Positions 1,562 to 1,641 of a stretch of DNA of 29,196 nucleotides are shown here, one piece after another. The stretch lies in the IMG/VR virus record IMGVR_UViG_3300031801_000011, positions 1 to 29,196 of that record; one strand, given 5' to 3'. Each line of letters begins with the position of its first letter. Position 1 is the first letter of the stretch. The notes under the pieces are model-generated. The model saw nothing but the letters and a program-made list of their open reading frames with translations. It had not been told where the DNA came from and made no database searches. The stretch is from a virus. A program made the position numbers and the translations under genes.

Positions 1562-1641
1562 GTTCAAACAGAGCTTCACTCAAGTGGAGACTTATGCGGA
1601 ATTAACCGCGTAGTGAGTAGAACTCACATTAGGCTCTGAAC
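1562..1641 (+). ncRNA. Structured 5' leader: four-way-junction RNA, candidate cis-regulator
   Basis: About 80 nt fold into one compact shape. A closing helix joins GTT(C)AAA-CAGAGC (1562-1574) to GCTCTG-AAC (1633-1641), with a short A-rich bulge. It encloses hairpin 1 (1574-1589, CTTCAC/GTGGAG, loop TCAA), hairpin 2 (1593-1612, TATGCGG/CCGCGTA, loop AATTAA) and hairpin 3 (1613-1627, GTGAG/CTCAC, loop TAGAA), which abuts hairpin 2 and could stack on it. The closing helix ends at base 1641, immediately before the AGGAG ribosome-binding site (1642-1646), so opening or closing it could control translation of the 1654 gene. I could not match it to a riboswitch family I know. It is not a tRNA: there is no T-loop motif and no 7-nt anticodon loop. 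Pairing is read by eye. Confidence 0.55.

Follow-up and report, generated by a model that had tools for sequence, protein, structure and literature searches.

A freshwater-2 RNA leader linked to late promoters and MGRP-family genes in T4-like phages

The late locus and its structured leader

The DNA analysed here (the window) is a 29,196-base IMG/VR fragment from an uncultured T4-like phage. Near its left end lies the gene for the major capsid protein gp23 (nt 21–1019; Pfam PF07068, E = 1.6e-97), which is followed by a T4-type late promoter box, CATAAATA (nt 1548–1555), a structured 5' leader RNA (nt 1561–1641), a Shine-Dalgarno motif, AGGAG (nt 1642–1646), and a late gene of the MGRP family (nt 1654–2079) that starts with the AUG at nt 1654 and specifies a protein of 141 aa. 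The promoter box and the Shine-Dalgarno were recognised from the sequence, the gene from sets of homologues and a predicted protein model, and all of these features are on the plus strand. T4 late promoters carry TATAAATA at positions -13 to -6 (PMC1524935), and the late promoter box of cyanophages is NATAAATA (PMC2984593). With the T4 spacing, the box at nt 1548–1555 places the +1 of the leader at about nt 1561, in line with the transcript start predicted in the initial annotation. TAAATA is found 25 times in the window, whereas dinucleotide shuffles lead one to expect 56 (sd 6.7), and many of the copies are shortly 5' of ORF starts (nt 1550, 2136, 4570, 11169, 12358, 20892, 22107, 25603 and 28517). 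Judged by their placement, the copies near ORF starts are putative late promoters, and the motif appears to be avoided elsewhere. The gene at nt 2149 begins only about 8 nt past its TAAATA box, so that the long leader of the gene at nt 1654 stands out as special.

Searches of the product of this gene against PHROGs and Pfam gave no match at E ≤ 0.001. Modelling with AlphaFold2 on 45 homologues returned a mostly beta structure (pLDDT 81), for which Foldseek found matches among uncharacterised phage proteins, including two of Atu_ph07, and nothing in the PDB at E ≤ 0.001. A second structural comparison gave weak resemblances to small barrels of the KOW/Tudor/SH3 type (Z about 5). Because of the late promoter and the position beside the capsid gene, the product is probably a virion protein.

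The leader had initially been described as a four-way junction in which a bulged closing helix encloses three hairpins, and the pairings, the loop sizes (4, 6 and 5 nt), the abutting hairpins and the boundaries are all present in the sequence as claimed. The closing helix, P1, pairs nt 1562–1564 with 1639–1641 and nt 1569–1573(4) with 1633(4)–1638, with the bulge CAAA at nt 1565–1568. Its 5' strand (nt 1562–1574) reads GUU(C) and then CAGAGC, and its 3' strand (nt 1633–1641), GCUCUG followed by AAC, overlaps a possible anti-Shine-Dalgarno, CUCU (nt 1634–1637). Hairpin P2 (nt 1574–1589; pairs 1574–1579/1584–1589) has the loop UCAA. The conserved core, ACUUAUGCGG..CCGCGUA (nt 1590–1612), contains hairpin P3 (pairs 1593–1599/1606–1612, loop AAUUAA), which directly abuts hairpin P4 (nt 1613–1627; pairs 1613–1617/1623–1627, loop UAGAA; written as a heptaloop, GUAGAAC). 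The 80-nt fold has a predicted energy of -27.5 kcal/mol compared to a shuffle mean of -15.4 (sd 2.9, z = -4.16), and none of 200 dinucleotide shuffles was as good. The three hairpins alone are predicted at -21.0 kcal/mol, at -25.6 when the closing helix is added, and at -26.2 with only its inner part. In a longer transcript, the closing helix competes with pairing of CUCU to the GGAG of the Shine-Dalgarno; this alternative fold is predicted at -24.1 kcal/mol, within about 2 kcal/mol of the closing-helix fold, and it is possible that the window leader has two states of near-equal predicted energy.

Family membership and gene context

A search of the whole window against Rfam (release 15) returned one match, the freshwater-2 RNA (RF02980, type Cis-reg), at nt 1574–1656. 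It scored 72 bits (cut-off 49.9; E = 2.3e-9) and covered model positions 1–84 of 84, so the initial statement that no family matches has been superseded. The window shows the three hairpins, the CUUAUGCgG..CcGCGUA core and the UAGAAC loop of the model, and model positions 70–84 align with AGGAGAAAACAAAUG, placing the Shine-Dalgarno and AUG at the 3' end of the element. The closing helix (CAGAGC/GCUCUG and GUU/AAC) is absent from the model. Membership of the freshwater-2 family is practically certain, and the window leader is a further member of a family already catalogued in Rfam. The Rfam entry gives neither a gene nor a promoter, and no discussion of the function of freshwater-2 or RF02980 was found in the literature searched, the paper describing the family lying outside that search. 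What is new here is the gene linkage, the late-promoter +1, the structural subclasses and the constrained second codon. The records behind L151, L087, L231 and L230 carry clear freshwater-2 leaders that score 44–49 bits, under the Rfam cut-off of 49.9; the curated threshold therefore misses part of the family.

A protein-first scan of IMG/VR with the product of the gene at nt 1654 gave 56 loci, the leaders of which contain the core. Pattern scans of IMG/VR added more (a viral scan without the loop gave many chance rows among the matches listed), and after removal of duplicates and chance matches at least 152 distinct leaders were collected. All 152 have TAAATA shortly upstream and all 152 are followed by an MGRP-type gene, the products of which begin with MGRP or a variant (MARP, MARS and similar) and are mostly 116–160 aa in length. 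A gp23 gene lies upstream in 117 of the 134 leaders with enough flanking sequence, usually within 1.5 kb. Twelve large phage records carry one copy of the RNA each, and L135 carries two.

Two further protein-first scans, free of any bias towards the RNA, provided 142 loci with enough upstream sequence. The RNA is present at 140 of these (139 with the core exact or with up to three changes, and a shortened version in L375 that was recognised by eye), and is therefore near-obligatory for the MGRP gene in these phages. The two loci lacking a leader of their own (L414 and L416) have the apparent tail of another MGRP-type gene (LTAI*) directly upstream. Upstream of position 1501, both show what appear to be tandem MGRP genes, the second with only a short intergenic Shine-Dalgarno. 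From this arrangement, each of the two exceptions appears to be a second gene that follows a leader-bearing MGRP gene, and in L414, where the leader was checked, an RF02980 match lies upstream of the first gene.

Among cultured phages, a DNA search for the leader returned nothing beyond short chance pieces, one of which pointed to gp466 of Atu_ph07, and a protein search with three MGRP proteins matched only the Sinorhizobium phage Phosso. Both are jumbo phages with distant MGRP homologues that keep the motif MGRPL.K..F, and the leaders of these homologues are short, without a freshwater-2 match. In L330, a manA RNA (nt 1137–1346; RF01745, 55.4 bits, just over its cut-off), with a terminator-like stem 3' of it, lies directly upstream of the freshwater-2 leader.

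The compact arrangement of several helices, the invariant nucleotides, the 3' end at a Shine-Dalgarno and the possible bistable pairing would also suit a small-molecule riboswitch. The gene context makes such a function very unlikely: the RNA stands only before one structural-type gene family, under a late promoter, and of 51 pattern matches in cellular genomes (257 billion bases) only that in L219 precedes an MGRP gene. L219, which was placed in the bin of a Rickettsiales MAG (MED657), carries a window-like freshwater-2 leader together with an MGRP gene, and is probably a misbinned or captured phage contig.

Helix conservation, subclasses and the gene start

The initial annotation proposed that a late gene carries a structured leader which acts in cis and has its 3' end at the ribosome-binding site. 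This is supported, and P2, P3 and P4 are all conserved by strong compensatory changes among relatives; the covariation counts treat the sequences as independent and are thus overstated, and one alignment with a misplaced row (L265) did not enter them. P4 is a stem of 3–4 bp that closes a heptaloop, N[U/G]A[G/A]AA[C/U]. Where the stem has 4 bp (105 sequences), standard pairing amounts to 91–100% at its individual pairs, compared to 43–62% in shuffles, with 32–61 double changes per pair. The variable pair of P3 (GC 84, UA 43, AU 24) is paired without exception; the remaining P3 pairs are fixed by the search pattern in the leaders that were found by it, and the protein-first loci include the paired variants UAUGGGG/CCCCGUA and UACGCAG/CUGUGUA. 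P2 varies freely across the family (88 distinct stems), is longer than in shuffled sequence, and in a few leaders shrinks to a tiny hairpin (GUCUAAGAC in L170). Two readings of the P4 loop were dropped, the first as a T-loop or anticodon-loop, since loop positions 1 and 2 vary, and the second as a pseudoknot between 5' GUUC and the loop GAAC, since the loop is unchanged in leaders with 5' GUC.

The closing helix is a different case. Of 151 leaders classed, it is present only in class W (12 leaders, the subgroup of the window); the remaining classes are L (69 leaders) and S (70), with five irregular leaders classed as Lx. Within the 12 leaders of the window's subgroup there are double changes at four of the six P2 pairs and at one P4 pair, while CAGAGC/GCUCUG is invariant and GUU/AAC departs only by unpaired cells, so that the closing helix shows no covariation. 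Hence the compensatory changes anticipated for four helices were found for three, and the four-way junction, although its pairing is present in the window, is confined to a subgroup. At the site of the closing helix, class L leaders have a match of 3–4 nt, GU(U)C/GGAC, and in 46 of them (Lc) CUCCU or CUUCU comes next, either of which can pair with AGGAG. Class S leaders are without the P1 3' strand. Mean fold z-scores are -5.0 (W), -3.3 (L) and -1.8 (S).

In every case the Shine-Dalgarno follows closely on the end of the structure, at a distance of 1–25 nt, and the mean predicted unpaired fraction of that motif is 0.18 in Lc, 0.58 in W, 0.63 in La and 0.69 in S (about 0.59 in the window itself). 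Strong pairing of the Shine-Dalgarno is thus predicted in 46 of the 151 leaders, and its sequestration as a family-wide mechanism was rejected, as it holds in the Lc subclass only. At the other end, most leaders have GU(U)C on the predicted +1 or no more than about 1 nt from it. In class S, the nucleotides immediately 5' of UUAUGC vary with this motif, leaders with GUUC tending to have xAAC and those with GUC tending to have xGAC (8/3 versus 3/39, p = 2.5e-5, an optimistic value given that the sequences are related), which suggests that in this class the 5' end closes P2 instead.

These features bear on the main rival to translational control, in which the leader is a constitutive 5' stabiliser or translation enhancer, its paired terminal GU(U)C blocking 5'-end-dependent decay or aiding 30S loading without any switch or partner. 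The position of GU(U)C at the +1, the class S coupling, as if the 5' end were kept paired, and a Shine-Dalgarno that is mostly free in two subclasses are consistent with such a role. It does not account for why P3 and the P4 loop are invariant in sequence, why the leader is restricted to one gene family or why 46 leaders carry an anti-Shine-Dalgarno, and we consider it an unlikely alternative, though one to be taken seriously.

Conservation extends past the Shine-Dalgarno. In 141 of the 147 MGRP genes with Gly at position 2, that codon is GGA (codons 2–3 of the window are nt 1657–1662), compared to 25% of Gly codons in gene bodies and 11 of 29 other ORFs that are preceded by a Shine-Dalgarno and start with Met-Gly; from this excess, the constraint extends beyond the start codon. 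The Arg codon at position 3 tracks the RNA class, with 48 CGN and 22 AGA in class S, and 11 CGN and 70 AGA in classes L and W together. Where class L leaders occur on protein families that otherwise have class S, most bring AGA along. The leader and the first codons may have been swapped together as a unit, or else the first codons may belong to the RNA element itself; in class S, the 5' GUC would find a match in a GGAC across codons 2–3. Arg codon bias itself also differs between the RNA classes, and for this reason the codon-3 pattern stays a lead.

The travelling of leader class and codon 3 together across protein subfamilies would also fit a role at the DNA level, with the leader as a recombination anchor for swapping MGRP genes behind a constant sequence. 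Strand-specific, paired compensatory changes in three helices and the fixed position at the +1 and Shine-Dalgarno need a role as RNA, and a DNA-level explanation is most improbable.

A proposed role in translation initiation and comparison with known systems

Our preferred explanation, held with modest confidence, is that freshwater-2 is the leader of a late mRNA, extending from the +1 to the Shine-Dalgarno of the MGRP gene, and that it controls translation initiation. The core, made up of P2, the CUUAUGC..GCGUA hairpin P3, and P4 with its N[U/G]AGAAC loop, would fold as a compact unit. The fixed letters of P3 and of the P4 loop argue for recognition by something, most likely a trans-acting factor that recognises the core, and the exclusive linkage to one late gene makes a protein the likelier partner than a metabolite. 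The output would be access of the ribosome to the downstream Shine-Dalgarno. The window belongs to the roughly one half of the family in which competition between the closing helix and anti-Shine-Dalgarno pairings could couple the fold to this access. We infer the translational control, as well as the partner and the sign of any effect; pairing of the Shine-Dalgarno is not general, and a leader that was a mere stabiliser or enhancer would look much alike.

The simplest form of protein-mediated control is autoregulation, and as a special case of the preferred explanation the MGRP protein may bind the leader and repress its own translation when the needs of the virion have been covered. The exclusive linkage of the leader to MGRP genes points in this direction, as do the short, basic and conserved N-terminus (MGRPxxK), the resemblance, albeit weak, of the model to tandem small beta-barrels of the Tudor/KOW/SH3 type, and the tandem MGRP genes of L414 behind a single leader. 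An autogenous operator is nonetheless rather doubtful, as the Phosso and Atu_ph07 homologues lack the RNA but retain their N-terminal motif, some proteins with a class L leader have close relatives with class S, and the RNA core stays identical among genes whose MGRP products share as little as about 20% identity.

A more elaborate version, which we regard as improbable, is that this dsDNA phage RNA serves as the operator of a virion protein gene and has a relocatable closing helix around the start site. In this version the 5'-terminal GUC would partner a GGAC that in class L precedes the Shine-Dalgarno, in L007 and L016 directly follows it, and in class S (AUGGGACGUCC) lies in codons 2–3. The element would then extend into the beginning of the gene, and translation would be governed by whether the start site is enclosed or released.

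With an orphan RNA tied to late promoters and to one gene family, its function becomes testable, as there is one leader, one gene and a defined +1. If the preferred reading of translational control is true, such structure-based regulation of a virion gene, exerted by a conserved leader of several helices, would be an unusual finding among dsDNA phages. The autogenous translational operators of T4-type phages (gp32, gp43 and the targets of RegA) precede genes for replication or nucleic-acid-binding proteins. Freshwater-2 is like these operators in being a phage leader structure beside a Shine-Dalgarno and in serving a single gene family, but differs in preceding a late, capsid-adjacent gene, and any protein that binds it is hypothetical. 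The manA RNA found in L330 is another orphan structured RNA from the same phage group; it has no match in the window, and is a separate element ahead of a terminator-like stem.
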